Assembly (NCBI RefSeq): GCF_003337245.1
Contig: NZ_QPJE01000014.1
Location: forward strand, 1 to 60,033
DNA: 60,033 nucleotides
From: Halanaerobium sp. MA284_MarDTE_T2
GTDB taxonomy: Bacteria > Bacillota > Halanaerobiia > Halanaerobiales > Halanaerobiaceae
Direction: 5' to 3'
This document shows positions 17,141-54,584 of the stretch, piece after piece; position 1 is the first letter of the stretch, and the number at the start of each line of letters is the position of its first letter. Position numbers and translations under genes: made by a program. A model generated the notes under the pieces. The model made no database searches. It was given only the letters and a program-made list of their open reading frames with translations, and had not been told where the DNA came from.

Positions 17141-17343
17141 GTTAAAATTGATATACACCTGTTTGCGACAGTATGGTGGCACAGTAATGTGTTATATTAA
17201 TATTAGGTAAAAACTTCTTGTTTTTAAGAAGGTTTATTCTGATAAATCGAGAATTTTAATAAATAGAAAATAAAAGTATTTTAAGTATATGGCGACTTTG
17301 TGTGACTTTAATCGACATAATATTTAGAATGAGGTGGTTTAAA
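17141..17343 (+). other. boundary region before defence island
   Basis: About 200 non-coding bases. ACTTCTT/AAGAAGG forms a small hairpin near 17211-17233. No convincing promoter spacing was found, although one must exist for the helicase operon; AT-rich TAATAT at about 17320 is a weak -10 candidate. Confidence 0.35.
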
Positions 17344-20298
17344 ATGCAGAGTAACTTCTCTTTTTTAAAGACGAAGTGGTCAAATTTAGCAGAAATAGCT
17401 GAACTGGCAGAAGAAAACTTATATCAGGACCCAAATACTACAATTGTCAAATTAAGGATGTTTACAGAACAGATTGTAGATTATATATATGCCTATGATA
17501 ATTTAGAAGAACCTGAAGAAAACAGCTTTTTTAATAAATTAAAATTACTGGAAAGAGAAGAATTAATTCAAGGAGAAATTGAAGATGTATTCCATACTTT
17601 AAGAATTGAAGGTAATAAAGGTGTACATGAGTCTTTAGATTCGACTGAAACTGCTAAAACCCTGCTTTCTTTAAGCCATAAACTTGCTGTCTGGTTTATG
17701 CAGCTTTATGGAGACTGGAATTATGAAGCAGAAGAATTTAAACTTCCCGAAAAAAATGATGAGCAAAAAACAGACTTAACAGCACTTGAAAATAAATATG
17801 ATAGTCTGATTGAAGAACTACAGCAAGAAATAGATGATTTAAAGAAAAGTCAGAACAGTCAGGAAATAGAAGATAGAAAAGAAAAAAGCAGAAAAATAAG
17901 TAACAACTTAGTATTTAATGCTGATGAAGATAATATTATTAAAATTAATAAAGATAACAGCATTGAAATCAGTTCAGAATATAAGTTTATAACTACAGAT
18001 ACTATTGAAGATAAAACACCAGCTTATAAAGACTCCTGGGATGCTGTAAGAAGAGCTTTTAGCGGCAGACAGTGTCTTGCCTACTGGCGTTATCCGCTTT
18101 TTTCTAAACGAGGCGAAAAACATAAAGAACCTGATATTACAATAATTGATAAAGATTTAGGTGTTGTAGTCTTAGAAATAATTGATATTAAATTAGATGA
18201 ACTGACTAATGCTCAGTATGAGCGCTGGGATTTTAAAAATGGCAGCAGCCAGGAAGTGATCTATAAAGTTGAAGATAACTTATATGAACTAAAGGGTCTT
18301 TATCAGGGTAATAGAAACCTAAGAAGAATTAAAGAGAGTTCTGCAGTGATTTTACCTGAGATAACTAAAGAGCAATGGTTAGAACAAGACTTTGATGATA
18401 AAAAAATTATTTTTAAAGATCAATTAACACCGAAGAAATTTTTGAATAGAATTGAAGAAATTGATACTTTAGCAGGAAATGAAAAGTTGAGCAGTGAAGC
18501 CTGGAATGATATCTTAATGATATTAACAGGTCAGATTACTCACAGTGTTCAAAGTTCTACAGATATTAATTCCACTAATGAATCGGATAAATTGAAAAAG
18601 CGCAGTCAGATAAAACAGAAAATTAAAGAGGATCTTTATGAAGTAGATATGCAGCAGGAGGTAATTGGTAAAACAATACCACCCGGTCCCCAGCGGATTA
18701 GAGGAATTGCTGGTTCAGGTAAAACTGTACTTTTAGCTCAAAAAGCTGCTCATATGCATTTGAAACATCCTGACTGGAAAATAGCTTTAGTATTTTTTAC
18801 CCGCAGCCTATATGATAGCGTCATCGAAGAGGTAAATAAATGGCTTAAAAGATTTAGTAATGGCAAGGTTGAATATGATCCAAATAATAATAATTTACAA
18901 GTATTACACGCCTGGGGAGCTAAGGATCAGCCAGGATTTTATAGAGAATTGTGTAAGGCTCATGGTAAAAAACCATTAAGTGCTAGAAGAAAAAAATTAG
19001 TAGATGGAGCCCCAAATGAAAAGTTAGTTCATGCCTGCAAATATTTGTTGGAAGATGTTGCTGAAATAAAAGAAATTTATGATGCAGTTTTAATAGATGA
19101 AGCTCAGGATTTAGTAGTTGATAATGAAGAAATAAAATATGAGAATAAACAGCCATTTTACTGGCTTGCTTATCAGAGCTTAAAAACAATCGATAAAGAT
19201 AAGGATAAACGTCTGATCTGGGCTTATGATGAAGCACAGAGTCTGAATTCACTAAATATACCTACTGCACCACAGCTATTTGGGGATGATCCGCATTTTA
19301 AAAGATTGGTCAGTGGTTTTCATCCCGGTGGAATTAGAAAAAGTGAAATTATGAATAAATGCTACAGGACTCCTGGCCCAATTTTAACTGCAGCTCATGC
19401 AATAGGAATGGGGCTTTTAAGAAAAGACGGAATGCTTAGAGGCTATACAACTCAGGAAGACTGGGAAAATATAGGTTATGAAATAAAGGAAGGGAGCTTT
19501 AATCCAGTAGGACAGAAGGTAGTCTTACATCGTCCTAAAGAAATGACTCCCAACCGGGTACCGGAATTATGGCCGGATGATATTATAAAATTTAACAGCT
19601 ATAATACTCGTAAGGAAGAGCTTAACAATTTAGTGGAAAAAATAAAATATAATATTGAAGTCGATGGCCTCTCACCAAGTAGAGATATTTTAGTTATTGC
19701 TTTAGGAGAGAGTAGAGAAGCATATAATCTAAAAGTCAGAGCTGCTAAAAGGCTCAATAAAGAAGGATTTGATATTTATATTCCTAAAGCACTGAAAAAT
19801 AATATTTTTTATCCCAAATTTCCTAATGAAGATAGAAATAAATTTTGGAATGAGGGTGGAGTTACCTTTACAACTACTTACAGAGCCAAGGGTAATGAAG
19901 CTTATATGGTCTATGTAATTGGTCTGGATAAAATTGCAGAAGATGAAAGTAATTTTGCCTTAAGAAACCAATTGTTTGTAGCTCTAAGCAGAACTAAAGG
20001 CTGGTTAGAAGTTAGTGGCATTGGTGATTTCCCGATGTATGATGAATTTAGAAAAGTTATTAAAAGTGGCAATACTTTTGAATTTAACTTTCAGAGGCCG
20101 CTATTAGAAAAGAATGAAAAGAAAAAAGAAGCAAGACAAATAAAAATTAATGATATAGTTGAACTAAACGATGGAGAAAGAGCAAAAGTAATTGAAAGGA
20201 ATGATAAACAGCTGATAGTTAAAGTATCTCAAGATGAGACTAGAGTTATAAAAAATAATGAATGCAAGTTTATAAAAGAAGGTAAAAAAGTTTATTAA
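17344..20298 (+). CDS. DUF4145-like / NERD-like / SF1 (UvrD-type) helicase
   Basis: 984 residues. The frame is open from 17302, but GAGGTGG at 17331-17337 points to ATG 17344. Residues ~1-130 resemble DUF4145 (VKLRMFTEQIVDYIYAY, GNKGVHESL); a short coiled coil lies near 150-185; residues ~235-330 look like a nuclease-related domain (PDITIIDKDLGVVVLEI, but the usual E-x-K is altered). The SF1 helicase has Walker A GIAGSGKTVLLA (~455), Walker B AVLIDEAQDL (~580), FTTTYRAKGNEAYMVYV (~845) and FVALSRTKGWLEV (~877). The last ~50 residues are an SH3-like tail shared with the next protein. First gene of a probable three-gene defence operon, with 24 bases to the next. Confidence 0.75.
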   Translation: MQSNFSFLKTKWSNLAEIAELAEENLYQDPNTTIVKLRMFTEQIVDYIYAYDNLEEPEENSFFNKLKLLEREELIQGEIEDVFHTLRIEGNKGVHESLDSTETAKTLLSLSHKLAVWFMQLYGDWNYEAEEFKLPEKNDEQKTDLTALENKYDSLIEELQQEIDDLKKSQNSQEIEDRKEKSRKISNNLVFNADEDNIIKINKDNSIEISSEYKFITTDTIEDKTPAYKDSWDAVRRAFSGRQCLAYWRYPLFSKRGEKHKEPDITIIDKDLGVVVLEIIDIKLDELTNAQYERWDFKNGSSQEVIYKVEDNLYELKGLYQGNRNLRRIKESSAVILPEITKEQWLEQDFDDKKIIFKDQLTPKKFLNRIEEIDTLAGNEKLSSEAWNDILMILTGQITHSVQSSTDINSTNESDKLKKRSQIKQKIKEDLYEVDMQQEVIGKTIPPGPQRIRGIAGSGKTVLLAQKAAHMHLKHPDWKIALVFFTRSLYDSVIEEVNKWLKRFSNGKVEYDPNNNNLQVLHAWGAKDQPGFYRELCKAHGKKPLSARRKKLVDGAPNEKLVHACKYLLEDVAEIKEIYDAVLIDEAQDLVVDNEEIKYENKQPFYWLAYQSLKTIDKDKDKRLIWAYDEAQSLNSLNIPTAPQLFGDDPHFKRLVSGFHPGGIRKSEIMNKCYRTPGPILTAAHAIGMGLLRKDGMLRGYTTQEDWENIGYEIKEGSFNPVGQKVVLHRPKEMTPNRVPELWPDDIIKFNSYNTRKEELNNLVEKIKYNIEVDGLSPSRDILVIALGESREAYNLKVRAAKRLNKEGFDIYIPKALKNNIFYPKFPNEDRNKFWNEGGVTFTTTYRAKGNEAYMVYVIGLDKIAEDESNFALRNQLFVALSRTKGWLEVSGIGDFPMYDEFRKVIKSGNTFEFNFQRPLLEKNEKKKEARQIKINDIVELNDGERAKVIERNDKQLIVKVSQDETRVIKNNECKFIKEGKKVY

Positions 20299-20322
20299 AT
20301 AATTATATTGGAGAGATGATAT

Positions 20323-23300
20323 ATGCAGGATATTGTAAAAAATGGATTAAATCTTTTTAAATATTTAGAAGAAGTCATTCGATTGAGTTATAAGGTAACC
20401 TATAATGTTGATAACTACAACAACCTTTTATTATACGAATATCAGTTTCAGTCTGAAGAATTTATTACTATAGAAAAAGAAACAGAATTATCTCCTCCAG
20501 TAATAACAATTAAGAGGCCAGATGAGCCAGAGAGACCGGAAATACCAGAAATATTAAAAGGATGGATTGAATTTGAAGAAAATGATAAATACATTCTGCC
20601 AACTAAAATAAATAAAAAATCTGTTGTTAATGAAACTGGAGAGGAAGAAGAGATATATTTTTCTGATGAGGATCAAAGAATTGAAAGCTATCAGAAGTAT
20701 GTAAATAAATTAGAAAATTGGTTAGAAGAAATTGAGCCGGTTTTAAAAATCAGAGATATTTATAATAAGTTATTCCAGGAAAGAAAAGCTCTGGATTATC
20801 AGGATAATATTGAGTTTGTAGTTGGTTATGGTTTAATGCAGTGGCAGAAAGATAATTCATTCCTCAATTATCCAGTTATTACCCACAATATGACTATTAA
20901 TTATGATGGTAAATCAAATGAAATAAAAATTACATATCCAGATGATGCAAGCTGGATGTTACAGGACGAGCAACTTTCAGAATTTACATCTATGTCAGAA
21001 AGAGAAAGTATAAAAAAGGTCTTCAATGAATTAGTGAGTTCAGATCCTACTGAAGAGGGATTTCTTGATTTATTATATTTTTTAAAAGGACTGGCTCCAG
21101 GTGCGGAAGTCAAAAAAATAGATAAATTAGATTCAGCTAAGATTAGTCAGGATTTAAAAATTTTTGACGGCTGGCTTTTATTTACCCGCAAAAAAACAAT
21201 TGTTGAACAGATAAAGGATATTGATGAATTTAAAAAGGAAATAAAAAATGCTTCAGCTATTGATAATCCAATTTTAGAACAAATTTTAACTCCACCGGAA
21301 GATAAAAAAATTGATCACAGTCAAATTGATACCCACACCGAGTGGGACAGCACTTTGGATAAGAAGGTCTTATTTCCTAAGAAAATCAACCAAGAACAGG
21401 TACGTATTTTAGATTATCTGCAGCAGAGTCAGGGAGTTGTAGTCCAGGGACCTCCTGGTACTGGTAAAAGTCACACGATTGCCAATCTTGTCTCTCATTT
21501 TGTCGCCAGTGGGAAAAGAGTATTAGTGACCAGTGAAAAAGAACAGGCTTTAAGAGTGTTATCTGATATGCTGCCTGATGCTGTTGAAAAATTAAGTATG
21601 ACTGTTTTATCAAATGATGATGACAGGATTAAGAGGCTGGAAAGAGTAATAGATAATATCACTAATATAGTTTCCAACTCATCTGAAGCCCAATTATTTG
21701 AAAAGAGATCAAATCTGGAAAAATCATTTGAACATAAAAGAAAGAAATTAGAGTCTATCAAAGCAGATATGAAAAAATTATCTAATGCTGATAAGGCAGT
21801 ATTTATAGAACCAATGGATAAAGAATTATATCCAGCTGATGCTCAGAGATTTGTTAAAAATGAAGAACATAAATATCAATGGTTTAATGATTTTCCTGCC
21901 TATGAAATAGAAGAAAAAAGAACTAAATTTGAAGAGATCATAAAACTACATTCGACAAATATTCCTTCAGCTGAAAGTCTCAGTGAAGCTTTAAAAATTA
22001 GAAAAGATATTGAAGATAATCTGGAAGATTTGGTAAATTATAAGCTACCTGATCTAAATCAAATAATAACCAAAGCAGAATTTGAAAAGATTGCAGAAAA
22101 CAAGTATGAAATTGCAAAAAAAGAAGCAGATATTAATAAATATTTTGAGGGCTTAGAGTTAAAAAATAATTTAGATGATTTAAAAGAAGCATATAATTTT
22201 ACTCAAGAAGTAAATGAGATTTATTCTGATATTGAAGAAAGCTGGGCTCTGGAGTTTATTGAAAACAATAAAAAAGAGATGGATAATATTGAAAAAAGTT
22301 TAAAAGAAATAAATGAGTTAAATAATAAAATGCAAAAAGAGGCAGAAAAATTAAGTTTTACAGATAATATAGAGCTTAATGATAAATATGATTACGAGAG
22401 TTATCAGAAGTTTATTGATCAGGCTCTTGAGAGAGTTGAAAATGGGAAAAATGCCTGGAATGTTTTAAGCTTCTTTGGTCTATTAGATAAGGGGCAGAAA
22501 GAGGCTATTAAATCTGTCCGTTTAAATCAGGAACTTCCAGAAACAAAAGAGACTTGGAAAAAGATTAAAGCATATATTGAAAGCAAAATTATTCAAAAAG
22601 AACTTATTGTCAAATGGGATAATTTTGCTGCTAATTTTATAGATAATAATTTGCCTGAAATAAAAATAGAAGACAAGGCGAAAAAAGTGAATTCAATTGT
22701 TAACAAAATTGTTAATGCCTTTAACTATAATAAATCCTTAAAAAATCAATTAAAAATGAAATTAAATAAAGTGATCTATGGTTCTGGAAAAATAATTCTA
22801 AATAATCTAGAAAAAGAATTTACAAATATATTAGAGGTTTTAGAGCTTAAAATAGATAATTTAAAGTTGAATCAGGCTGATGATAAATATAGCAAGCAAA
22901 AAGAATATTTATTGAAATTTAAAAATAAAAATGTTCATCCTACAGCTTTAAAATTGTTTGAAATCTTAGAAAAAGATTTTGCAGAATTCAGAGATCATGT
23001 AGATAGCTGGGGAGAACATTATAATCAATTAGTTAAATTAGATAAGGCTCAAAAAAAGCTGCAGGAAATGAAAAGTTATTTAGAGATTCTTAAAAAAGAA
23101 GCTTTTCGCTGGTATCAGGATTGGTTAGATTCTGAAATTGATTCTAATGAGCTTAAACCAGATAACTGGAAAGAAGCCTGGAAATTTAATATTCTAAAAT
23201 CTTATCTAAAAGATATAGCAGATAAAAATGAGAAAATGTCTAAATTAGAAGCTGAACTTAAAGAAAATCAGGATAAGATTAGAGAATTAAAAGAAGACAT

Positions 23301-25083
23301 TGTGGAAGTGACTACCAAAATTAGTTTGATCAATAATATTACTCAAAAGAATATAGGGGCCTTAAAAAGCTGGAAAAGTATGGTCAAAAAAATTGGAAAG
23401 GGTTATGGTAAATATGCCAGTAAATATGCTGCCAAAGCCCGTAAATATATGAAAGAAGCTAGAGATTCTGTACCTGCCTGGATAATGCCTGTCTATAAGG
23501 TTTCTGAGACAACAGTGAAAAAAATGTCAACTTTTGATGTTGTCATTATTGATGAGGCAAGTCAATCTAATGTAACTAGTTTACTGGCCCTTTTGCGAGC
23601 TAAAAAAGCAATTATTGTTGGAGATGAAAAACAGATTACTCCTTCTGCAGTAGGTAGAGATAAGCAGAAAGTTTTAGATTATATTACTCGTTATTTAGGT
23701 GATATTCCTTTTAGTGATAACTTTGACTTAGAAACTAGTATTTTTGAGTTAGCAGAAATATTTTTTGGGACAAAGAAATTGATGTTAAAAGAACATTTTA
23801 GATGTTTACCTGAGATTATATCTTTTAATAATGATCTTTTTTATCAAAATAAAATAATTCCATTAAGAAATCCGGCTCAGAGCGAAAAATTAGAGCCTGT
23901 TTTAGAAAATGTTTATGTAAAAGATGGTTATAGAAAAAATAAAGTTAATAAAGTAGAGGCAGAAGCAATTTGTAAAAAAATAGCAGAGTTAATAAAAAAA
24001 GATAAATATCGAGATAAAACCTTTGGTGTTATCTCTTTAACCGGAAGAGATCAGGCCAAACACATTTATAATTTAATTGATAATTATATTAGTACTAATG
24101 ATCAAGAAAGAATAAGATTTCATGCTGGCGATGCTTATGATTTTCAGGGTGATGAAAGAGATATAATTATTTTATCAATGGTTGTTGGTGGTCAGAATGA
24201 TAATTATCGAGCTTTATCCGGTAAAACCTATGAACAGCGAATTAATGTTGCTACCAGCCGGGCTAAAGATAAATTAATCTTATTCCATTCCGTTCAATTG
24301 GGAACTGATCTTACCAATCCAGATGATCTGCGCTATAAATTATTGAATTATATTAAAAATGGAATTACAGAAAAAGATTTAGATGAAAATAAAAAGAAAA
24401 AATGTGATTCTGTATTTGAAGAAGATGTCTATGACTGGTTAACTGAACGCGGATATGAAGTTACACCTCAGGTAGAAGTAGGTGCTTATAGAATTGATCT
24501 GGTTGTTGAAGGAGAAAACAACAGACTGGCTGTAGAGTGTGATGGTGACCGCTGGCATCCACCGGAAAAATGGTGGGCTGATAAAATGCGTCAGCATCAA
24601 TTAGAAAGAGTTGGCTGGACCTTCTGGCGAGTATCAGGTTCTGCTTTTTATAATGATCCAGACCAGGCAATGAGTTCTGTAATTAAAATACTTAATTCTT
24701 TAAATATAAAACCTCAAAAAAGAAAAAAAGAATTTGAAGAAGAGTCTAAACAAATTGAAATAGATAATGAGAATCAGGATAGATTAAAAGAGCATAATCA
24801 AGTAAAGGATAATGAAAATGATGAAGTTGGCTCTAATAGTTTTCAAGTTATCAGCAGCCAAAAAGAAATCACTGAAAATGAAGAATTAAATCTTAAGTTT
24901 GATTTTGGAGAAAGTAATGAAGAAGACTTTGATGAGTTTGATCTACACGATATTGTAGAAAATTATGATGGTAGAACAGGGAAAGTTTATGATATTGAAA
25001 ATGATCATCTGATTGTTATTAACGAAGCAGGCAAGATTGAAAAGTGGAAGATCAAAGATGTTGATTTGATTAGGCCAAGTTGA
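20323..25083 (+). CDS. giant SF1 helicase with C-terminal Vsr/MTES_1575-like nuclease
   Basis: 1586 residues. Walker A VVQGPPGTGKSHTIANL at about residue 375; a long Lys/Glu-rich coiled-coil insertion (~440-1050); Walker B FDVVIIDEASQSNVTSLLAL (~1070) with GDEKQITPS; helicase motifs YDFQGDERDIIILSMVVGG (~1270) and NVATSRAKDKLILFHS (~1307). Residues ~1360-1455 match the very-short-patch-repair/DUF559 nuclease fold: IDLVVEG, LAVECDGDRWH, WTFWRVSG. The end (1535-1586) repeats the SH3-like tail of the upstream helicase. The layout recalls the single-gene DUF4011-helicase-Vsr protein Hhe, but the partners differ. RBS GGAGAGATG; it is cotranscribed with both neighbours. Confidence 0.8.
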   Translation: MQDIVKNGLNLFKYLEEVIRLSYKVTYNVDNYNNLLLYEYQFQSEEFITIEKETELSPPVITIKRPDEPERPEIPEILKGWIEFEENDKYILPTKINKKSVVNETGEEEEIYFSDEDQRIESYQKYVNKLENWLEEIEPVLKIRDIYNKLFQERKALDYQDNIEFVVGYGLMQWQKDNSFLNYPVITHNMTINYDGKSNEIKITYPDDASWMLQDEQLSEFTSMSERESIKKVFNELVSSDPTEEGFLDLLYFLKGLAPGAEVKKIDKLDSAKISQDLKIFDGWLLFTRKKTIVEQIKDIDEFKKEIKNASAIDNPILEQILTPPEDKKIDHSQIDTHTEWDSTLDKKVLFPKKINQEQVRILDYLQQSQGVVVQGPPGTGKSHTIANLVSHFVASGKRVLVTSEKEQALRVLSDMLPDAVEKLSMTVLSNDDDRIKRLERVIDNITNIVSNSSEAQLFEKRSNLEKSFEHKRKKLESIKADMKKLSNADKAVFIEPMDKELYPADAQRFVKNEEHKYQWFNDFPAYEIEEKRTKFEEIIKLHSTNIPSAESLSEALKIRKDIEDNLEDLVNYKLPDLNQIITKAEFEKIAENKYEIAKKEADINKYFEGLELKNNLDDLKEAYNFTQEVNEIYSDIEESWALEFIENNKKEMDNIEKSLKEINELNNKMQKEAEKLSFTDNIELNDKYDYESYQKFIDQALERVENGKNAWNVLSFFGLLDKGQKEAIKSVRLNQELPETKETWKKIKAYIESKIIQKELIVKWDNFAANFIDNNLPEIKIEDKAKKVNSIVNKIVNAFNYNKSLKNQLKMKLNKVIYGSGKIILNNLEKEFTNILEVLELKIDNLKLNQADDKYSKQKEYLLKFKNKNVHPTALKLFEILEKDFAEFRDHVDSWGEHYNQLVKLDKAQKKLQEMKSYLEILKKEAFRWYQDWLDSEIDSNELKPDNWKEAWKFNILKSYLKDIADKNEKMSKLEAELKENQDKIRELKEDIVEVTTKISLINNITQKNIGALKSWKSMVKKIGKGYGKYASKYAAKARKYMKEARDSVPAWIMPVYKVSETTVKKMSTFDVVIIDEASQSNVTSLLALLRAKKAIIVGDEKQITPSAVGRDKQKVLDYITRYLGDIPFSDNFDLETSIFELAEIFFGTKKLMLKEHFRCLPEIISFNNDLFYQNKIIPLRNPAQSEKLEPVLENVYVKDGYRKNKVNKVEAEAICKKIAELIKKDKYRDKTFGVISLTGRDQAKHIYNLIDNYISTNDQERIRFHAGDAYDFQGDERDIIILSMVVGGQNDNYRALSGKTYEQRINVATSRAKDKLILFHSVQLGTDLTNPDDLRYKLLNYIKNGITEKDLDENKKKKCDSVFEEDVYDWLTERGYEVTPQVEVGAYRIDLVVEGENNRLAVECDGDRWHPPEKWWADKMRQHQLERVGWTFWRVSGSAFYNDPDQAMSSVIKILNSLNIKPQKRKKEFEEESKQIEIDNENQDRLKEHNQVKDNENDEVGSNSFQVISSQKEITENEELNLKFDFGESNEEDFDEFDLHDIVENYDGRTGKVYDIENDHLIVINEAGKIEKWKIKDVDLIRPS

Positions 25084-25104
25084 TTTTAGCAGAAAGGGGC
25101 AGTT

Positions 25105-26497
25105 ATGAGTTATCAAGAGATGAATCTAGATTTTGATAATCAAATTAATTATAAAAAATTAGCAATAGACTTTATTAAAGCGGAAACAGAAAAAGAAATT
25201 GATTCTATCTTAAATAAACATGAAATTTTTGCTGATGATAATAACTGGCGAAATTATGGTGATTTAGATAATAACTTTGGCACTATTGGTAATCAACAGA
25301 GTGATTCTACTTTAGCTTTAGTAGAAAAAATAATCAATAGTATAGATGCAGTTTTAATATCTGAAGCTAAAAAGACCGGTATAGATCCTAGTAGTGATGC
25401 TGCGCCTAAAACTATGAACCAAGCAGTTGAAAGGTTCTTTAATATTCAAGATGGTAAAATTTCTCTTCTTAGTTCAAAAGAACAAACTAAACTAGCTGAG
25501 AAAATAAACTTGATTGCAACAGGATCCCGTCAAAATCCATCTTATATTATTTATGATAAAGGTGAGGGGCAAAGACCAGAAGACTTTCCGGATACTCTAT
25601 TAAGTTTACATAAATCAAACAAAGACAAAATTTTATTTGTTCAGGGTAGATTTAATATGGGTGGTACTGGTGCCCTTCCTTTTTGTGGTCATAAAAATTA
25701 TCAGTTTGTTATGTCTCGAAAACATCCTGAAATTGATGATTCAAATAATGAATGGGGCTTTACTTTAGTTAGAAGAAGGCGCCCCAAGGATGGAGAAAAA
25801 TTTTCGGTTTATGAATATTTTGCACCAGATCAAAAAATTGCAAGTTTTAAGGCTGATAACTTAGATATACTACCTGATAGTAAATCTGGGAAATATCAAA
25901 ACAGAATAAATTATGGTACATTAATTAAGCTATATGAGTATGATATAACTGATAGAACTTTAATTACTTTTGATTTATATTATAGCTTAAACAGAAAAAG
26001 AGGGAGATAGGATTACAATTGATGTTGAACTAGACAGTTTTGGTGCTGCACCTACTTTTGCGAAGAGTTTAATTTTAAATATAACTGAAACTGATAAAGG
26101 AAAGAAAAAGAAGACTAAAACTAATAAACCTAAAGATAAAAATGATAATTTAAATTTACCTAATATTTCTTTATTAGAAAAAGAGGATTGGCCTGAAAAA
26201 TGGAGTGAAGATAGTACAATTTTAATTAAAGAGTCAGATAAAGACTTAGATATTTATGTAAATAGAGATAATGTTAATTTAAAGAGAACTTTAAAAACTA
26301 AAAAATTAGATCAGAGTGAAATAGAGCTCTATGAAGAAAGATTTAAAATAGCTCTGGGATTAATAGGCTTTTCTATCTACTCTCAGTTAGAAGATGAGCA
26401 GGATAAAGAAAAAGTGATTCAAAAAACTACTAAGCCCATTTCTCAAATCATATTGCCCTTGATTGAAGAATTGGGAGATTTATCAGATTTGATGTAG
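25105..26497 (+). pseudogene. GHKL (Hsp90-like) ATPase, broken by internal deletion/frameshift
   Basis: The first 301 codons (25105-26010) include GHKL-type ATP-binding motifs: ALVEKIINSIDAVL (N-box-like, ~residue 75), YIIYDKGEGQRPEDFP (G1-like, ~150) and GRFNMGGTGALPFCG (G2 lid, ~185). The frame stops at TAG 26008-26010. A second frame, open from about 26003, runs ITIDVELDSFGAAPTFAKS ... IILPLIEELGDLSDLM to TAG 26495-26497 and has no usable start. Together they look like one gene that lost an internal piece around 26000. It lies 21 bases after the helicase-nuclease, so it was the third gene of that operon. Confidence 0.7.
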
Positions 26498-26593
26498 AAT
26501 AAGATATTTTATTATAAAATCATTTTCTGCTGCAGTTATAACAATAACATCAAATTCATCAATTTCTGAATAATATCATTATTTTCCTTGTTA

Positions 26594-26622: not shown

Positions 26623-26673
26623 ATAACAAGTAGGAGTTTAATTGGCCCGATTTACAAGGAGAAGTGATATTTG

Positions 26674-27282
26674 ATGAAAGAAAAATTAAAATATAGTTCA
26701 GGAATCAAGTCTAAACCCTTCCTGTATGTAGAGTTTAAAAAGGCTGCCGAGCTTATGTTAGAGCATCCCGACCAGTCTATCAGAGATTTAAAAAAGAAAA
26801 CTGTAGAAGAAAATATATTTCAATTTGATTCAACTAATCGTAAAAAAGAAGTCGCTTCTGCAGTTTTTAAACGATTAAAAGTTTTAGATGATTTTTTAAT
26901 AGAAAAATTATTAAATGGCACCATTGATAGTGGTAAGCAAATAACAGTTTATTCTATTTTAAAAACCGACCGACTCTTTTTTGAATTTATGAATGAAGTT
27001 TATAAAGATAAATACCAAGTGAGAGATCCATATTTAAGAGATAAAGACTTTAATATTTTCTTTCAACATAAGGCTGAGCAGAGTGAAAGAGTCGCTAAAT
27101 GGGTTGATTATACCTATTACAAGTTGAAGCAGGTTTATATAAGAATCCTATTTGAAGCTAATTTTATTAAAGACCAGGATGAAAGAGAAATAAATAAACC
27201 CTTAATTAGTCCAGAACTTGAAGATCATTTAATTAATATCGGAGACAAAGTATATCTAGAAGCTATGCTGGGGGGAGAATAA
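26674..27282 (+). CDS. brxA: BREX protein BrxA (DUF1819)
   Basis: 202 residues. The composition, length and position fit BrxA/DUF1819, a small helical DNA-binding protein of type I BREX: YSSGIKSKPFLYVEFKKAAE near the N-terminus, then SVFKRL-type helices and YTYYKLKQVYIRILFEANF near the end. AAGGAG at 26656-26661 serves either TTG 26671 or ATG 26674; the ATG is listed. The stop overlaps the brxB start by one base (TAATG), so the two are translationally coupled. Confidence 0.9.
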   Translation: MKEKLKYSSGIKSKPFLYVEFKKAAELMLEHPDQSIRDLKKKTVEENIFQFDSTNRKKEVASAVFKRLKVLDDFLIEKLLNGTIDSGKQITVYSILKTDRLFFEFMNEVYKDKYQVRDPYLRDKDFNIFFQHKAEQSERVAKWVDYTYYKLKQVYIRILFEANFIKDQDEREINKPLISPELEDHLINIGDKVYLEAMLGGE

Positions 27283-27878
27283 TGAGCGAGATAAGAAAAA
27301 GATTAGATCAAATACTGCCAGAAATAAAAAAGAAAGATTTTTTAAATAACAAAGGATTAGGTAATGAAATAGGATTTTATTTATTTGATTATGATCCTGA
27401 AGATGAATTAATAGTCAGAGATCATATTGATTTTTTAATTCGCAAGATGAATAATAATCCAGACACAGCAGATATAGTAGAATTTGATCTTTTTAATATT
27501 ATGATAGAAATTCTTGAAGATAAAGGTTATTTGGATAAGACTTTTAAGATGGAAGAAAAAAGCGGCAGTCAAAAGATGATAAAAAAAATAAAGACTACTT
27601 TAAGTTTAAAAAGTAATGCCCGTTTATTTACCAACTACATTTCTGAAAGAGTTGAAGAAAATCAGATAATATTCATCACAGGAGTTGGTAAGGCCTGGCC
27701 GATTGTAAGATCACATACAGTTTTAAATAATTTACATCCTAAAATAGAGGATAATCCCTTAGTAATGTTTTTTCCAGGAAACTATGATGGTGCCAGCTTA
27801 AGTCTATTTGGGGATATTCATGATGATAATTATTATAGAGCTTTTTCTTTAGTACCCAGAAAAGATTCAGTCATTTAG
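27282..27878 (+). CDS. brxB: BREX protein BrxB (DUF1788)
   Basis: 198 residues matching BrxB/DUF1788, an essential BREX component of unknown biochemistry. Typical segments are EIGFYLFDYDPEDELIVRDH, FITGVGKAWPIVRSHTVLNN and VMFFPGNYDGASLSLFGDI. Length is standard. It is coupled to brxA by start-stop overlap and followed by brxC after 12 bases with RBS AGGAGG. Confidence 0.93.
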   Translation: MSEIRKRLDQILPEIKKKDFLNNKGLGNEIGFYLFDYDPEDELIVRDHIDFLIRKMNNNPDTADIVEFDLFNIMIEILEDKGYLDKTFKMEEKSGSQKMIKKIKTTLSLKSNARLFTNYISERVEENQIIFITGVGKAWPIVRSHTVLNNLHPKIEDNPLVMFFPGNYDGASLSLFGDIHDDNYYRAFSLVPRKDSVI

Positions 27879-27890
27879 GAGGCTAAATTA

Positions 27891-30800
27891 ATGAGAATTG
27901 AAAATATGTTTAAAAAAGACATAAATAGAGAGATCAGAGGAGTTATTAAGGTTGCTCAGAATGATGAAAAAATAGTTAAAAATGAATTAGAAGAATATGT
28001 TGTTACCAATGAATTAGAAATGCACTTCCAGGACTTTTTTGAAGCCTATAAAAAAGGAATTGACGATTATACAGATAAGATGGGAGTATGGATTTCAGGT
28101 TTCTTTGGATCTGGTAAATCACATTTTTTAAAGATACTTTCTTACATATTAGATAATCGTGAAGTTAAGAATAAAAAAGCTAGAGATTTTTTTGATGAAA
28201 AGATAAATGATCCAATGCTGCTTGCAGATATGCAGAGAGCAAGTGAAATTCCTTCTGATGTTATTTTATTTAATGTTGATTCTAAGAGTGATTCTGACAG
28301 TAAAGCTGATAAGGAAGCAATTGTAAAAGTTTTTATGAAAGTTTTTAATGAACATCAGGGTTATTGCGGTAGTATTCCCTGGCTTGCAGATTTAGAAAGA
28401 AGATTGGATCAAGAAAATAATTATCAAAAATTCAAAAATGAATTTGCAGATATTGCAGGAGATAACTGGGAGAATAAAAGAGAAGATTTCTATTTTGAAG
28501 AAGAAGCAATTATTGAAGCTTTAGTTAGATCAACCAAAATGAACAAAGAATCGGCCAAGCACTGGTATGAAACTTCTGAAGATAATTACAGTATTAGTAT
28601 AGAAAAGTTTGCAACAAGTGTTAAAGAATATATAGCAGAAAAAGAAGATAATCACCATGTATTATTTTTAGTTGATGAGATTGGTCAGTATATTGGCGAT
28701 GATGGACAGTTAATGCTTAACTTGCAGACTGTAGCTGAAGACCTTGGTATTCACTGTGGTGGAAAGGCCTGGGTTATGGTAACATCTCAAGAAGAATTAG
28801 ACAAAACTGTTAAAAGAATTAAAGGTATGGACTTTTCTAAAATTATGGGAAGATTTGATACCAGATTAAATCTTTCTGGGGCTAATGTTGATGAAGTTAT
28901 TAAACAGCGTATTCTTGCTAAAAATGAAACAGCAATTGATACTTTAAAACTCCTTTATAATGATAAGAGTGCTGTTCTAAAAAATATAATCACCTTCAGT
29001 GAGGGTACCAGATTTATGGAAAACTATAAAGATGCTGCAGAATTTGCAGAAGTTTACCCGTTTGTGCCTTATCAATTTAAACTTTTACAGCAGGTTTTCG
29101 AAGAAATAAGAAGACATGGAGCTACAGGTAAACACTTATCTGAAGGTGAAAGATCTTTACTAAGTGCTTTTCAGGAAGCAGCTCAAACCATTACTGATTC
29201 TGATGAAGGTGAAATAATACCATTTTCAACCTTTTACAGACCAATAGAATCATTTTTAGATTCAAATATTAGAAGAGTAATTGAAAATGCTAAAATGAAC
29301 GATAATTTAAGAGATTATGATGTTGAAGTTTTAAAGCTATTATTTTTAATCCGTTATGTTAACTTTGTTACAGCAAATATAGAAAACATTACTACTCTTT
29401 TAGTTTCTAAAATTGATGAAGATAAAATAGAGCTTAAAAAGAATATTGAAGAATCTCTACGCCGTTTACTCAAAGAAACATTAATTCAGAGAAATGGTGA
29501 AGAATATTTCTTCTTAACAAATGAAGAGCAGGATATTAATAGAGAAATTAATTCTATGGATGTCGATAGTTCTAAGATTTTAAAATATGTAGGAGATATT
29601 ATTTTTGAAGAAATTTATACTGATAAAAAATATAGATACAATAAGAAATATGACTTTGCTTTTAATCAAATAATTGATGAAATGAATAGAGGTCGTCAGA
29701 CTGAAGATATTGGGATTAAGATTTTAACACCATATTATCCAACAGTTGATGATCGTCAGCTATTATTAGAGTCTTCAGGTGAAAATAATATCATTGTCAA
29801 AATGCCTGATAATGCTAACTTCTTAGATGAGGTAGAACAGTCTCTAAAAATAGAAAAATATTTACGGAAAAGAAGCAGTCAGAATAAAACTAACGCTTAT
29901 GAAGATATTATAAGCCGAATTCAAAGAGAACAGACAACTCGTAAAAAAAGAATTCAATCTTTAATTGAAGATAATTTAGGTGAATCTAAAATATTTGTTA
30001 GAAATAGCAATCCTGATATTGGAACTACTGATCCAGTTAAAAAAATTAACGAAAGCTTTAAATATTTAATTGAATCTCTTTATGAAAAGCTTAATTATAT
30101 TAATAAACACTATGAATCTCAAAGTGATTTAGATGATTTAATCAACTCTGATAAATTGCAGTTAGAGTTAGGAGAGAATAAAAATAACAAACTGGCCTAT
30201 GATGAAGTAAAGAATTATTTGGATAGAAAAAATAAACAAAATATGCGTGTTAGTTTTAAAAACTTAGTTGAGAAATTTACTTCTGTTCCTTATGGTTGGA
30301 GAGAATTAGACTTAGCTGCTGTTATAATCCAGCTTTTAAAAGCTAAAGAAATTAATCTCCAATACAATAGTGAAAATATTAATCTGAATAATAAAGACTT
30401 AACTGAGTATTTAACAAAGAAAAGACATCAGGAAAAATTAGTTATCAAAAAAAGAGTTAAAGTAGATCAGTATTTAATTAATAATGCTAAAAGCTTGGGT
30501 AGAGAATTGTTCAATAAAAGTACCTTACCTGATGATGAAGACAAGTTAAAAAAGAAATTGCAGTATTTAATTAATAATGAATATCTATCTAATATAAAAT
30601 TTACTTTAAGAGAATATCATGAAGAAAAAGGGTATCCAGGCAAAAAAGAATTGAAATCTGCCCAAAAGGTGTTTAACGAGATTGAAAATATTGATGACTC
30701 CTATCAGTTTTATAAAGAACTTGATGAGCAAAGTGAAGAACTAAAAGAAACTGGAAGAAAACTAGACAGGATATTTGGGTTTTTTGAAAATCAAAGGGAA

Positions 30801-31466
30801 CATTTTGATAGAGCTTTAGAGACTCTTCAGCTTTACGATAAGAATAAAAACTATATTGAAAACCAGGATTTAATTGAAATAGCTAAAGAACTTAGATCAA
30901 TAGTTAATTCTGATAATCCTTATGCTAAAATACATTCTATTCCTAATTTAAGAGATGAATTTAATGAAATATTTGTTGATCAAATTTTAGAAGAAAAAAG
31001 TAAATCGAAAAAAGAAGATATCTTAATAGATAAAGAAAAAGTAAAAAGTGAATTAGAAAATAGTTCTTACGAATTTGAAGAGAATTTTAAGACTAATTTA
31101 ATAAAGCGTTTTGATGAACTTTTAGAAAGATTAAAAGAGTCTAATAATATTAATGAGATAATTGCTATGCCTCAAGAAAGTGAAGTTATAAAACAGAAAT
31201 GTTTTGATGATATTAATAAAAAAATTGCTGAAATAAAAGAGAAGCAGGGTAATGATCAAGAACCTGATATTGAATATGGAACAAAAAAAGAAAATGAACC
31301 AGAAACTTTGGTTAGAGAAAAAGAAACAAAAAACATTAGTTTAAATAAGCTTTTTAAAACTACTAAAACTATAAAAAATGAAGATGATATAGAAGAAGTT
31401 TTAAATGAAATTAGAGCTGAATTAAAGAATATTCTAGATGAAGATAAAAATATTAAATTAATATAG
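27891..31466 (+). CDS. brxC: BREX P-loop ATPase BrxC
   Basis: 1191 residues, standard for BrxC/PglY. MFKKDINREIRGVIKVAQND at the N-terminus is highly typical. Walker A ISGFFGSGKSHFLKIL lies at about residue 68, Walker B-like VLFLVDEIGQYIG at about 258, and a sensor/arginine-type segment in IMGRFDTRLNLSG. The C-terminal two thirds is helical and highly charged. BrxC is an AAA-type ATPase thought to assemble with BrxB, PglX and PglZ. The gene is full length without disruption. Confidence 0.95.
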   Translation: MRIENMFKKDINREIRGVIKVAQNDEKIVKNELEEYVVTNELEMHFQDFFEAYKKGIDDYTDKMGVWISGFFGSGKSHFLKILSYILDNREVKNKKARDFFDEKINDPMLLADMQRASEIPSDVILFNVDSKSDSDSKADKEAIVKVFMKVFNEHQGYCGSIPWLADLERRLDQENNYQKFKNEFADIAGDNWENKREDFYFEEEAIIEALVRSTKMNKESAKHWYETSEDNYSISIEKFATSVKEYIAEKEDNHHVLFLVDEIGQYIGDDGQLMLNLQTVAEDLGIHCGGKAWVMVTSQEELDKTVKRIKGMDFSKIMGRFDTRLNLSGANVDEVIKQRILAKNETAIDTLKLLYNDKSAVLKNIITFSEGTRFMENYKDAAEFAEVYPFVPYQFKLLQQVFEEIRRHGATGKHLSEGERSLLSAFQEAAQTITDSDEGEIIPFSTFYRPIESFLDSNIRRVIENAKMNDNLRDYDVEVLKLLFLIRYVNFVTANIENITTLLVSKIDEDKIELKKNIEESLRRLLKETLIQRNGEEYFFLTNEEQDINREINSMDVDSSKILKYVGDIIFEEIYTDKKYRYNKKYDFAFNQIIDEMNRGRQTEDIGIKILTPYYPTVDDRQLLLESSGENNIIVKMPDNANFLDEVEQSLKIEKYLRKRSSQNKTNAYEDIISRIQREQTTRKKRIQSLIEDNLGESKIFVRNSNPDIGTTDPVKKINESFKYLIESLYEKLNYINKHYESQSDLDDLINSDKLQLELGENKNNKLAYDEVKNYLDRKNKQNMRVSFKNLVEKFTSVPYGWRELDLAAVIIQLLKAKEINLQYNSENINLNNKDLTEYLTKKRHQEKLVIKKRVKVDQYLINNAKSLGRELFNKSTLPDDEDKLKKKLQYLINNEYLSNIKFTLREYHEEKGYPGKKELKSAQKVFNEIENIDDSYQFYKELDEQSEELKETGRKLDRIFGFFENQREHFDRALETLQLYDKNKNYIENQDLIEIAKELRSIVNSDNPYAKIHSIPNLRDEFNEIFVDQILEEKSKSKKEDILIDKEKVKSELENSSYEFEENFKTNLIKRFDELLERLKESNNINEIIAMPQESEVIKQKCFDDINKKIAEIKEKQGNDQEPDIEYGTKKENEPETLVREKETKNISLNKLFKTTKTIKNEDDIEEVLNEIRAELKNILDEDKNIKLI

Positions 31467-31482
31467 TGGGGAGCATAATATA

Positions 31483-34400
31483 ATGAATAAATCAGCTATA
31501 AAAAAGTTTGCTGTTCAAGCAAGAAATCAACTTATGAAAGAAATTGATCAGAAGGCTTATGAGATAGGTATAGAAAAAGATAAAATTCATAGTTTAGAAA
31601 ATAATGCTCAAATACACGGGAGAACTTTAAATTCAACTGAGATAAATCAGAGAAATAAGTTAATTGAAGAAATAGAACAAAAAGGTTATGAACAGGTTAT
31701 AGATGAAGTAGCTTATACCTGGTTTAATAGATTTGTTGCTTTAAGATTTATGGAAGTGAATGGTTACTTACCTACAGGTGTTAGGGTGCTTTCTTCTAAA
31801 ACAGAAGGTAAAATAGAGCCTGATATAATACAAGAAGCCTTAAATATTGATTTGGATATTGAAGCAGAAATAGTTCATCAGTTTGAAGATAATAGTGATA
31901 CTAATGGTTTATACCGTTATCTTTTAATTAAACAGTGCAATTCTTTGAATGATATTATGCCCTTTATTTTTGAAAAAATAGCTGATTACACAGAGATATT
32001 ACTACCCAATGATCTCTTGAAAGAAGACTCAGCTATTAGAAATCTGGTAGAAAATATTGATAATGAAGACTGGCAGGATGTTGAAATTATCGGTTGGATT
32101 TATCAGTTTTATATTTCTGAAAAGAAAGACGAAGTTTTTGGTTCCTCAGGGAAAGTAAAAAAAGAAGAAATTCCTGCTGCCACTCAGTTATTTACACCTG
32201 ACTGGATAGTTAGATACATGGTTGAAAACTCTTTAGGGAGATATTGGCTGGAATCTAATGCTAATGATAGTTTAAAAGATAAATGGGAATATTATTTAGA
32301 AGAGGCTGAACAAGAGCCTGGGGTAATAGAAGAATTAGAAAAAATCAGAGATAGAAATATTAATCCAGAAGAAATAACTTTTTTGGATCCTGCTGCAGGT
32401 AGTGGTCATATTTTAGTTTATGCTTTTGAAGTGCTTTATGATATTTATAAGTCGGCAGGATATATGGAATCTTCCATACCTCAATTGATTTTAAATAAAA
32501 ATATATATGGTCTTGAAATCTGTGATAGAGCAGCACAGCTAGCTTCTTTATCAGTTATGATGAAGGCAAGACAAAAAGATTCTAGAATTTTTGAAAAGAA
32601 AGTTGACTTAAATATTGTTTCTATTCAAGAAAGTAACATTATAGATGAAACAGCAATTGATTTATTAGTTGATAGTATTGAAGAGCAGAAATATAAAAAT
32701 TATTTAGAGAAAGATTTAAAATATTTAGTTGATCTATTTGAAGATGCTAAAAACTATGGTTCTATTTTAAAGATTGAACAGGATATTTCTATTGATTTAA
32801 TTAATAAAGCTTTAAATAACTTAAGTAATAGTGCTGTTGATTTATTCGGAGGGAAAAATAGAGGAATAATTATCAATTTGCTTCCTAAATTATTAGAACA
32901 ATATCAGATTATGAGGAATAAGTATAATATTGTTGTTACCAATCCCCCTTATATGGGAGATAGAAATATGAATAAAAGTCTTAAAGATTATTTGAATAAT
33001 AATTATAAAAAAAGTAAAGATGATTTATTTACAAGCTTTATAGAGAAAATTTTTATTTTTACTAATTCAAACGGCTTAATAGGACTAATGTCCCCAAATG
33101 TTTGGAGATTCAATAAAGCAAGTACAAATTTTAGAATAAATCTATTAAATAAACAAAATATTAATAGCTTAATTCAATTAGAAGAATCAAGTTTTTTAGA
33201 GGCTTCTGTTTCAATTACTACTTTTATATTAAGAAATAAAAAAGTTAATAATTTTTTAGGGACTTACATAGATTTATCAAATTTTAAAGGTGCTAATATT
33301 CAACCTACAAAAGTTAAACTTTCAATAAATAATAATGTAAATTATAAAAAAATTATTAATCAAGATGTTTTTAAAAAAATTGATGGAGCACCGATTACTT
33401 TAGATATTAATCATAATATATTAAATATACTTGAAGAAAGTGAAAAACTCAAAAATCATATTGAGTTTAAATCTGGTCTATCAACAGGAAATAATGACTA
33501 TTTTCAAAAATTTTGGTATGAAGTTGATTTTTTTTCAATTGGATTCAATTATAAATCAGTTGGAAAAACAAAGTCAAAAGATAAAAAATGGTTTCCTTGT
33601 AATAGTGGAGGTAGTTTTCGAAAATGGTATGGTAATAATGAAAAAATTATTAATTATAAAAATAATGGTTATGAATTAAAAAATTATAGAGATTCCTCTG
33701 GAAAACTAAAATCTTCATTGAGAAATAAAGAATATTATTTTAAAAAAGGTATAACATATAATAAGATAGGTTCAGATAGATTTAGTGCTAGATACAAAAA
33801 TCATGGTTTTATTTTTGATGATACTGGTAGATCGGCTTTTACTGGAAATGAAATTTGGGACAAAATAATTTTGTCATTTTTGTGTTCTAAATTATCTATT
33901 TTATTTCTAAAATTGATGAATAAATCAATCAGTTTTACTCATAGTGCTCTTAACCGTATTCCATTTTTATATAATAATGTTAAAACTCAAAAAGATGAAA
34001 TTGCTTATTTAACAAATAGCTCAATATATATATCAAAAAAAGATTGGGATTCTTTTGAAATATCCTGGGACTTTAAAAAGCATCCATTATTAGCATATAA
34101 AAATGAAGCTAATACTATTCAAGAAGCTTTCAATAACTGGTCAGAGTTTGCAGAAGAAAAATTCTATCAACTAAAAGAAAATGAAGAAAAACTAAATGAA
34201 ATATTTATTGAAATATATGGTTTAGAAGATGAATTAGATCCTGAAGTCAAAGAAAAAGATGTAACAGTAAGAAAAGCAGATAAAGCAAGAGATATAAGAT
34301 CATTCATGTCTTATGCAGTTGGCTGTATGCTCGGAAGATATTCTTTAGATGAAGAAGGTTTAGTTTATGCAGGAGGAGAATTTGACCATTTAAAATATGA

Positions 34401-35010
34401 AACATTTAAGGCAGATAAGGATGGAATAATTCCTGTTTTAGATAAAGAATACTTTGATGATGATATAGTAGCTAGATTTGTTGAATTTGTTAAGGTAACA
34501 TTTGGTGAAACAAACTTAGAAGAAAATCTTGAATATATAGCTGATGCTTTAATTGAAGGTGGAACGAGTGACCAGGATACAGCAAGAGAAACTATTAGAC
34601 GGTATTTCCTCTTTGACTTTATAAAAGACCATACTTCTGAATATAATAAGTGCCCTATTTATTGGTTATTTCAGTCAGATGGAAGAGGTAAAGCCTTTAA
34701 TGCTCTAATTTATATGCACCGTTATGATAAAGGAACTGTATCCAGAGTAAGAACTGATTATCTACATGAACTGCAGAATAAAATAGAATCAGAAAAGGTT
34801 AGACTGCAAAATATAATTGATTCTGATCTTTCAGGTCGCCAGAGAACTCAGGCTAAGAAAGATTTAGAGAAATTAGAAAAACAGACAGCAGAACTAAAAG
34901 AATACGATCGAAAATTAAATCACTTAGCAAATCAGCAGATTGAGATAGATTTAGATGATGGAGTAAAAGAAAACTACGCTAAGTTTGATGAAGTATTGAA
35001 GAATATTTAG
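31483..35010 (+). CDS. pglX: BREX adenine-specific DNA methyltransferase PglX
   Basis: 1175 residues. It modifies the host recognition site and gives BREX its specificity. SAM-binding motif I FLDPAAGSGHILVYAFE at ~300 and catalytic motif IV NPPY in VVTNPPYMGDRN at ~488 mark a gamma-class N6-adenine methyltransferase. N-terminal AYTWFNRFVALRFMEVNGYL and C-terminal YDKGTVSRVRTDYLHELQNK are standard PglX blocks. The middle (about 33180-34050), covering target recognition, is AT-richer than either flank (about 20-25% against 30-40% G+C in sampled lines), suggesting a swapped specificity domain. The gene is intact; 16 bases from brxC and 10 from pglZ. Confidence 0.95.
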   Translation: MNKSAIKKFAVQARNQLMKEIDQKAYEIGIEKDKIHSLENNAQIHGRTLNSTEINQRNKLIEEIEQKGYEQVIDEVAYTWFNRFVALRFMEVNGYLPTGVRVLSSKTEGKIEPDIIQEALNIDLDIEAEIVHQFEDNSDTNGLYRYLLIKQCNSLNDIMPFIFEKIADYTEILLPNDLLKEDSAIRNLVENIDNEDWQDVEIIGWIYQFYISEKKDEVFGSSGKVKKEEIPAATQLFTPDWIVRYMVENSLGRYWLESNANDSLKDKWEYYLEEAEQEPGVIEELEKIRDRNINPEEITFLDPAAGSGHILVYAFEVLYDIYKSAGYMESSIPQLILNKNIYGLEICDRAAQLASLSVMMKARQKDSRIFEKKVDLNIVSIQESNIIDETAIDLLVDSIEEQKYKNYLEKDLKYLVDLFEDAKNYGSILKIEQDISIDLINKALNNLSNSAVDLFGGKNRGIIINLLPKLLEQYQIMRNKYNIVVTNPPYMGDRNMNKSLKDYLNNNYKKSKDDLFTSFIEKIFIFTNSNGLIGLMSPNVWRFNKASTNFRINLLNKQNINSLIQLEESSFLEASVSITTFILRNKKVNNFLGTYIDLSNFKGANIQPTKVKLSINNNVNYKKIINQDVFKKIDGAPITLDINHNILNILEESEKLKNHIEFKSGLSTGNNDYFQKFWYEVDFFSIGFNYKSVGKTKSKDKKWFPCNSGGSFRKWYGNNEKIINYKNNGYELKNYRDSSGKLKSSLRNKEYYFKKGITYNKIGSDRFSARYKNHGFIFDDTGRSAFTGNEIWDKIILSFLCSKLSILFLKLMNKSISFTHSALNRIPFLYNNVKTQKDEIAYLTNSSIYISKKDWDSFEISWDFKKHPLLAYKNEANTIQEAFNNWSEFAEEKFYQLKENEEKLNEIFIEIYGLEDELDPEVKEKDVTVRKADKARDIRSFMSYAVGCMLGRYSLDEEGLVYAGGEFDHLKYETFKADKDGIIPVLDKEYFDDDIVARFVEFVKVTFGETNLEENLEYIADALIEGGTSDQDTARETIRRYFLFDFIKDHTSEYNKCPIYWLFQSDGRGKAFNALIYMHRYDKGTVSRVRTDYLHELQNKIESEKVRLQNIIDSDLSGRQRTQAKKDLEKLEKQTAELKEYDRKLNHLANQQIEIDLDDGVKENYAKFDEVLKNI

Positions 35011-35020
35011 GGGTGAAGTT

Positions 35021-37564: not shown

Positions 37565-37594
37565 TATACTTTAATCTTTAAAGAAGGTGAATTT

Positions 37595-42863: not shown

Positions 42864-44094
42864 TCTAAAAACAGTATATATATCGGAGTGGTCCAAATTA
42901 AGTGCAGAAGAATTGAGGGAAAAATATAATCTCAGACAGCTTGTTAACTCTGATTTTAAATTAATTAATGAAATAGAAAACAAATTAAAAATTAGACAGT
43001 TGAGTAATGGTATAGAGATAGAAAGTAATTCTTATGTAGGAGTAGTTAAATTAAATAACTTTCAAATCATAATTTCTCCTAAAATAACAAATTTTAATCT
43101 AGCTAAAATGATTGCCTTTGCTTATGATTTAGAAAGCATTGAAATATTAAATGAGCTTAATGAATTAGCAACTGATAAAGCAAATATTTCAGATATTATT
43201 TCTTTAATTTTTCTAAAAGAAACAGAAAATATATTTTATCAAGGTTTAAGAAAAAGATATCAGGAAAAAGAAGAAGATATAGCCTCCTGTAGAGGTAAAA
43301 TAAATTTTAATAAACTAGCTAAGAATTCTTCCTCTTCTGTAACACTACCTTGTAGATATCAGGAATTAACTGTTGATATAGAGGAAAATCAAATCATTTT
43401 GGCTGCTTTAAGATTATTATTAGCAAATACAAATAATAGAAAGTTAAAGAAAAAGTTAAATATTCTATTTTCTAAAATTAAAATTGAAGTCAGTTTAAGG
43501 TCATTATCTTATCAATTATTAACTAAAGGTTTAAATAATAGTGATCGTTTAAATAATAATTATAAGAATCTTTTTAGATTAGTTGAGTTGCTTTTAAGAA
43601 AAGAGGATTTTAATTTATTAGGGGAGCAAGATAATGACTTTCCAGGTTTTTTATTGGATATGAATCTTTTATTTGAAAGATTTTTAAAAAAATATTTTAA
43701 GAGTAAATTATCTCCAGGCGTTAAGGTTGAAGCTCAAAAGAGTTTAAAAAATAAATTTAGATCTGATAAATTATCATATAATTTAATTCCTGATTATCAG
43801 TTTTTTGAAGATGGAAAGTTAGTAAGAATAGCTGATGCCAAATATAAAAATTATGAGCAGAAAAAAGTGTCAGTTTCTGATTTATATCAGTTAACAGCTT
43901 ATGCATTAGCCAACAAAGGAAAGATTAATCAAGTTTACTTATTTTATCCAGGTTCTAAAATTGAATCTAAAACATTTTCACTTAATAATTTAGCTAGAGA
44001 TATCAAAGTTGAAATAATAGCTCAGGGATTGAATATTGAAAGGATTTTAGATGATATTGAAAATAAAAATTTGGATTTTAAATTATTTGATTAA
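42856..44094 (+). CDS. mcrC: McrC-type endonuclease subunit
   Basis: 412 residues. The C-terminal PD-(D/E)XK nuclease motif is clear: IPDYQFFEDGKLVRIADAKYK contains the Asp and the D-x-K of the active site (~312-328). Central residues LPCRYQELTVDIEENQIIL and FERFLKKYF are typical of McrC. McrC stimulates McrB GTPase and cuts DNA carrying modified bases. The gene overlaps mcrB and has no independent promoter, as in other mcrBC operons. Full length. Confidence 0.92.
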   Translation: MNDLKTVYISEWSKLSAEELREKYNLRQLVNSDFKLINEIENKLKIRQLSNGIEIESNSYVGVVKLNNFQIIISPKITNFNLAKMIAFAYDLESIEILNELNELATDKANISDIISLIFLKETENIFYQGLRKRYQEKEEDIASCRGKINFNKLAKNSSSSVTLPCRYQELTVDIEENQIILAALRLLLANTNNRKLKKKLNILFSKIKIEVSLRSLSYQLLTKGLNNSDRLNNNYKNLFRLVELLLRKEDFNLLGEQDNDFPGFLLDMNLLFERFLKKYFKSKLSPGVKVEAQKSLKNKFRSDKLSYNLIPDYQFFEDGKLVRIADAKYKNYEQKKVSVSDLYQLTAYALANKGKINQVYLFYPGSKIESKTFSLNNLARDIKVEIIAQGLNIERILDDIENKNLDFKLFD

Positions 44095-44107
44095 GAGGTG
44101 TATAATA

Positions 44108-44686: not shown

Positions 44687-44719
44687 GGTTAATAATAGAA
44701 AGTATCAAGGGGGGGATAT

Positions 44720-45540: not shown

Positions 45541-45562
45541 ATTGTAATTATAAAAAATAAAA

Positions 45563-45597
45563 ACACCTGATAAAATATCAGGTGTCTTCATAATTTT
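45563..45597 (+). terminator. rho-independent-type hairpin, shared by convergent genes
   Basis: ACACCTGATA (45563-45572) pairs perfectly with TATCAGGTGT (45576-45585) over a 3-base loop. T-rich sequence follows on the plus strand (CTTCATAATTTTAATTTT) and an A-run precedes it (TTTTTATTTTTTA on the minus strand), so it can serve both the mcrBC side and the convergent PemK-like gene. Confidence 0.7.
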
Positions 45598-45668
45598 AAT
45601 TTTGCCCATTTAAGAGCTCTTTATAATTTTATTTTCTATATTAATAATACTATTTTATCAGTCAATTG

Positions 45669-46196: not shown

Positions 46197-46309
46197 ATTT
46201 GGTTCACCTCCATTAAATTATATTAATTATAACATAATTTCTATAAAAAGGAAATAAATTTCTGTAAATTTCAGAATATTATACGGAAAAATAAAAAGAG
46301 GTAGATACA

Positions 46310-54550: not shown

Positions 54551-54584
54551 ATATATAAATTAAAAAATCGGAGAGATAATTTTT

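Follow-up and report, generated by a model that had tools for sequence, protein, structure and literature searches.

The window, a stretch of 60,033 nucleotides, contains three genes, here called A, B, and C, which all lie on the + strand and are separated by gaps of only 24 bases between A and B and 21 bases between B and C. They are probably co-transcribed. The block that they form is flanked on one side by the malonate-transporter genes madLM and is followed directly by a BREX cluster, after which McrBC components are found at 41-44 kb of the window (Table 1). A sequence-only reading of this DNA had described three closely spaced ORFs in one direction, encoding a DUF4145/NERD-like helicase, a helicase-nuclease, and a GHKL ATPase, at the edge of a defence island beside BREX. 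The ORFs and their spacing are confirmed in the sequence, the domain content is supported by profile matches and, for the GHKL part of C, by the fold of an intact orthologue, and the island position is supported by the genes brxA-brxB-brxC-pglX-pglZ-brxL immediately downstream. As that reading also said, no named system with exactly this trio was found.

Table 1. Features of the A-B-C block and its neighbour, in window coordinates.
Feature	Position	Strand	Basis
Gene A	17344..20298	+	ORF listing, profile matches, start and tail by comparison with orthologues
Gene B	20323..25083	+	ORF, profile matches, comparison of 29 B loci
5' part of gene C, a 301-aa ORF with the GHKL (Bergerat) ATP-binding domain, ended by a frameshift past the internal deletion	25105..26010	+	ORF and Halanaerobium congolense comparison
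Out-of-frame 3' remnant of gene C, with the Ig-like beta-sandwich and the helical C-terminal end	26011..26497	+	H. congolense orthologue
Recently transferred block, common to the window and H. congolense	17251..26502	+	DNA comparison
BREX cluster brxA, brxB, brxC, pglX, pglZ, brxL; neighbour, outside the block	26671..39628	+	gene content

Two further parts of the island recur elsewhere. Past BREX, the window encodes a McrBC-like pair (AAA_5 and McrBC) and a separate MrcB_N protein (41013-48097), relatives of which also adjoin B in loci L049, L051, and L060. At the far end of the island (53374-58330) lie genes for PRiA4_ORF3, DUF6933, and an 822-aa protein, and the same three genes, with 74-87% identity, directly follow A in another genome, G009 (L048:5670-11467), indicating that parts common to both islands are differently arranged in them.

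Gene A encodes a protein of 984 aa from the ATG at 17344, or of 998 aa from the mechanical ORF start, a GTG at 17302. The ATG appears to be the more likely start, because homologue alignments begin there and a GAGGTGG motif lies just upstream. The protein consists, in order, of a DUF4145 domain, a NERD-like segment, a UvrD-type SF1 helicase with intact Walker A and B motifs, and a C-terminal tail of 54 residues, and it is matched by DUF4145 (E 1.1e-7), UvrD_C_2, and a PADLOC NERD+UvrD model. DUF4145 belongs to the HEPN superfamily (PMC3710099), and the version in A most resembles the one found at the N-terminus of type I HsdR subunits (HsdR-N-like). The HEPN Rx4-6H motif reads LRIEGNKGVH in A, so that the histidine is present and the arginine lies 8 residues before it rather than 5; this shifted spacing is also seen in most A orthologues and HsdR relatives. 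In an alignment of seven A orthologues, the NERD residues EPDI and LE are conserved and the lysine of ExK is absent, the position two after E being I, E, N, or another residue. Based on this alignment, A does not have the complete NERD nuclease active site (D and ExK). The combination of a NERD-like segment with a UvrD motor is shared with the NERD-UvrD helicases (PADLOC C3a187, 'Helicase' PDLC03002; STM2767 family), which are found as single genes on plasmids of Deinococcus, cyanobacteria, and haloarchaea. A differs from these proteins in having an extra DUF4145/HEPN-type domain in front, as in type I HsdR, and a short tail in the present genome. A sequence search of solved structures with A gave no match, and no relatives of A were found in the viral contigs scanned.

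The tail of A is related to that of B (window 20131-20298 and 24920-25083, ~50 residues each; E 1e-4 in a two-sequence comparison), and tails of this kind also end the B relatives in L051 and L056. Among the A orthologues examined, the tail is found only in the window protein and in a fusion protein of G009. The H. congolense A ends without it at the same point, despite nearly identical DNA on either side. The tail was rejected as proof of coupling between A and B, since the H. congolense A adjoins B and yet has no tail.

Gene B encodes a 1586-aa protein in which a long coiled insert divides a Upf1-like SF1 motor, and an MTES_1575 nuclease and a C-terminal tail follow. The profile matches are AAA_11/AAA_12 and MTES_1575 (E 1.6e-31), and the nuclease, which is of the Vsr type, occupies residues 1365-1456 with its motif residues present (ECDG..H). 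Sequence matches of B among solved structures are limited to Upf1/Sen1/Dna2-type helicases, and the viral contigs scanned contain no relatives of B. PDC-S37, a single-gene phage-defence candidate of PADLOC (naming per PMC12988326), likewise combines an SF1 helicase with a Vsr-type nuclease. Residues 298-1519 of B match positions 239-1393 of the 1550 in this profile, that is, most of it, with an E-value of 3e-81; the assignment rests on this E-value and coverage and not on PADLOC's own threshold. The N-terminal ~300 residues and the C-terminal tail of B lie outside the match. B also resembles PDC-S37 in its single-gene nature, since no gene family recurs beside it in 29 B loci, where the gaps to neighbours are usually >100 bp. 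A literature search for PDC-S37 by name and for the mechanism of Hhe returned surveys only, and no experimental test of PDC-S37 was found among them. Hhe and ProA share with B a C-terminal helicase motor half followed by a Vsr-type nuclease. However, B scores 180 bits against the NCBIfam cut-off of 2000 for Hhe and 260.8 bits against that of 1500 for ProA (NF058533), and it is therefore not filed as either. The Hhe match is mainly confined to the C-terminal third of B, and DUF4011, a domain of Hhe, is absent among the Pfam matches of B. From its sequence, B is best read as a single-gene helicase-nuclease of the PDC-S37/Hhe kind, and by analogy it may work like Hhe and ProA.

Gene C gives only a weak profile match, to HATPase_c_3 (E 0.0058), and a sequence search of solved structures with C found none. 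Its GHKL identity was confirmed from the predicted fold of the intact H. congolense orthologue, which has 764 residues. This model shows, in order, a GHKL domain, an S5-like middle domain, a long helix, an Ig-like beta-sandwich, and a helical end, and it matches the N and M domains of Hsp90/TRAP1 (Z 15.6 over 289 residues), with SMCHD1 as a further match in Foldseek. Compared to the intact copy, the window C carries an internal deletion of ~901 bp, which is not a multiple of three and has removed the S5-like middle domain and the long helix, so that frame 1 retains the ATP-binding domain alone and the C-terminal part is read in a different frame. The third gene is thus disabled, as the sequence-only reading had proposed. 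An assembly error was considered as the cause of the break and seems the less likely one: in the assembly, the two halves are ~97% identical to H. congolense around one clean junction.

The N-terminal GHKL domain and S5-like middle domain seen in the H. congolense model are those of MORC/paraMORC proteins; this comparison rests on the orthologue, the window copy being without the S5 part. Relatives of C often adjoin a DNA methylase, which the window copy does not. C differs from the MORC/paraMORC proteins in its C-terminal part, where an Ig-like beta-sandwich and helices are found and no nuclease fold appears among the top structural matches, and it is likened to this kind in general rather than placed in one of paraMORC1-5. 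A GHKL ATPase is also used in phage defence by VcSduA, a Shedu type with a GHKL domain that corresponds to paraMORC3 (PMC12137116). C resembles VcSduA in its GHKL ATPase, and the DUF4263 nuclease domain of Shedu is absent from the Pfam matches of 50 C homologues, the window copy being judged through its orthologue. The modelled fold suggests, as the best reading, that C is a paraMORC-type ATPase, which is dead in the window.

The block is 97-99.8% identical at the DNA level between the window and H. congolense DSM 11287, while the flanks differ on both sides. Its edges fall ~50 bp upstream of the GTG of A and 5 bp past the stop of C. For two other window proteins that were compared, identity between these genomes is only 58% and 81%. 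Such identity within edges fitted tightly to the trio, compared to 58% and 81% elsewhere, indicates that the three genes were transferred recently as one unit between two genera. The transfer is best explained as having come from, or together with, a Halanaerobium relative. Downstream of C, where the window has BREX, H. congolense has another defence-type cluster, including GmrSD, a DUF6079 protein, an N6/N4 methylase, and a SNF2-type helicase (L009:4440-15740).

The known copies of the block are damaged in different ways. In the window, A and B are open and C is partly deleted. In H. congolense, A and C are open, and the copy is split over two contigs that meet inside B. The contig ends (L047:1-95, L009:1-95) carry 29-bp inverted ends, a duplicated 5-bp target (TTAGA), and a sequence with many copies in the genome, which shows that B is interrupted by an insertion sequence, at which the contigs break. 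In G009, A is fused in frame to a B tail (L048:2367-5495; 76% identity over 53 residues), the rest of B is gone, and C is absent. This fusion is taken as the scar of a deletion that removed B, and it supports a former adjacency of A and B there. The loss of a different member from each copy is what independent genes would predict, and it could also reflect decay of the block as a whole. The dN/dS values are 0.085 for A and 0.12 for B against orthologues that are now without the other trio genes, and they span time both before and after the genes were separated.

The sequence-only reading took the trio for a new multi-gene anti-phage system, a claim that depends on whether its members occur together in unrelated genomes. 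In collections holding one genome per species, one scan found relatives of C at 421 loci. Of these, the best 79 besides H. congolense were examined together with 5 plasmid loci, covering many phyla, and neither A nor B was found near C in any of the 84 (flanks of at most 10 kb, and less at contig ends). Without correction for relatedness or for flanks that are cut short, this puts the linkage of C relatives to A or B at no more than ~3.5% of them (95% upper bound). Among 29 B loci, C lies near B in none and A in one, at a distance of 3.9 kb. Outside the window, H. congolense, and G009, the A orthologues have neither B nor C as a direct neighbour. A survey of 398 genomes of the phylum, uncorrected for relatedness, found A in 9 (in two of them solely by the HsdR-N domain), B in 31, and C in 5. 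All three genes occur together in the genome of the window alone, and A and B occur in one other genome, on different contigs, where 0.45 would be expected by chance. No intact A-B-C copy was found in the collections searched, both trio copies being broken. Homologues therefore occur alone, as the A orthologues of other genomes, 28 of the 29 B loci, and all 84 C relatives show. The sequence-only reading had itself named this outcome as one that would speak against its claim, and the proposed system is not supported. What stands of the trio as a unit is its joint movement between two genera, whereas its conservation as a three-gene system does not.

The neighbours of C relatives show a pattern of their own. 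An N6/N4-type DNA methylase lies beside the gene in 29 of 85 loci (within L092-L141, e.g. L095:12253-13434, N6_N4_Mtase) and is absent beside the window C; it is mostly convergent and immediately adjacent, and in the C tree such loci are spread across several clades. C is often preceded by one of several interchangeable small genes, encoding a 77-aa protein, an RHH-type protein of 350 aa, a VapBC-like pair or PIN-domain protein, or a ~200-aa protein. The C relatives have no meaningful PADLOC family, with one marginal match, and no NCBIfam family, and the Pfam match to HATPase_c_3 is weak. The association of GHKL ATPases with methylases, SF2 helicases, and Vsr-type endonucleases is a known theme (Iyer et al. 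2008, PMC2292703). It is conceivable, if only as a tentative proposal, that the C family, a widespread group of Hsp90-like ATPases, represents an uncatalogued GHKL-ATPase system in which a methylase and an exchangeable small gene form a restriction-like or epigenetically gated defence module with no recognisable nuclease. A location of C relatives in defence islands is not claimed, because PADLOC models show no clear enrichment near compared to far from them (2/80 vs 1-2/80 members per family).

Collectively, the trio is very probably a stack of three self-sufficient genes and not one machine, because relatives are nearly always found separately and the known copies of the block differ in the gene that they have lost. 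All three genes would have entered the defence island in one recent transfer. We infer an anti-phage activity for A, B, and C, with catalytic steps that could be as follows. B would act alone, its SF1 motor translocating on invading DNA and its Vsr-type nuclease cutting it, as proposed for Hhe and PDC-S37. A would be a separate stand-alone helicase, probably processing foreign or damaged DNA, in which the HEPN-like and NERD-like domains may serve as sensor or regulatory parts. Intact C would be a dimerising, Hsp90/MORC-like, ATP-driven clamp of the paraMORC kind.

Some observations count against such a stack. The precise edges in two genera and the short gaps give the look of a functional operon, the G009 fusion scar supports adjacency of A and B in a third genome, and these two genes carry related C-terminal tails. 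The operon-like spacing, the transfer as a precise unit, and the known GHKL-helicase-Vsr theme would suit a lineage-restricted three-gene system of the Halanaerobiaceae, in which C loads or gates B and A prepares the DNA end, by analogy with MutL-UvrD-Vsr/MutH or with MORC-helicase-endonuclease operons (PMC2292703). Such a system is improbable, considering that only two instances of the trio are known, that they stem from one recent transfer and are broken in different genes, that C relatives occur without A and B and B relatives without a fixed partner, and that the MORC operons of that study carry SF2 helicases. It is less probable still that A and B alone form a functional helicase pair with a related C-terminal tail domain, C being a passenger: the two genes are adjacent in the window, in H. 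congolense, and, by the deletion scar, in G009, but A is found with no adjoining B in G022, G025, G044, and G050, B is without A in 28 of 29 loci, and the tail that would unite them is missing from the H. congolense A and the other A orthologues examined, the G009 fusion excepted. We also think it unlikely that the three genes are DNA-repair or housekeeping factors that hitch-hiked into the island. Several A and B relatives do lie among ordinary genes, and the surroundings of C relatives show no enrichment of PADLOC-type defence genes, but the patchy distribution, the recent horizontal transfer, the island with BREX and McrBC, and the matches of B to the PDC-S37, Hhe, and ProA defence models argue against it.

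The reading of three independent genes does away with one false 'new system'. Close packing of genes and their joint passage between two genera are insufficient alone to define a multi-gene system, and scoring the decay of each copy of a block provides a cheap test for such systems. The GHKL family of C, which is poorly modelled by the curated libraries searched and often adjoins a DNA methylase, is the more promising lead.
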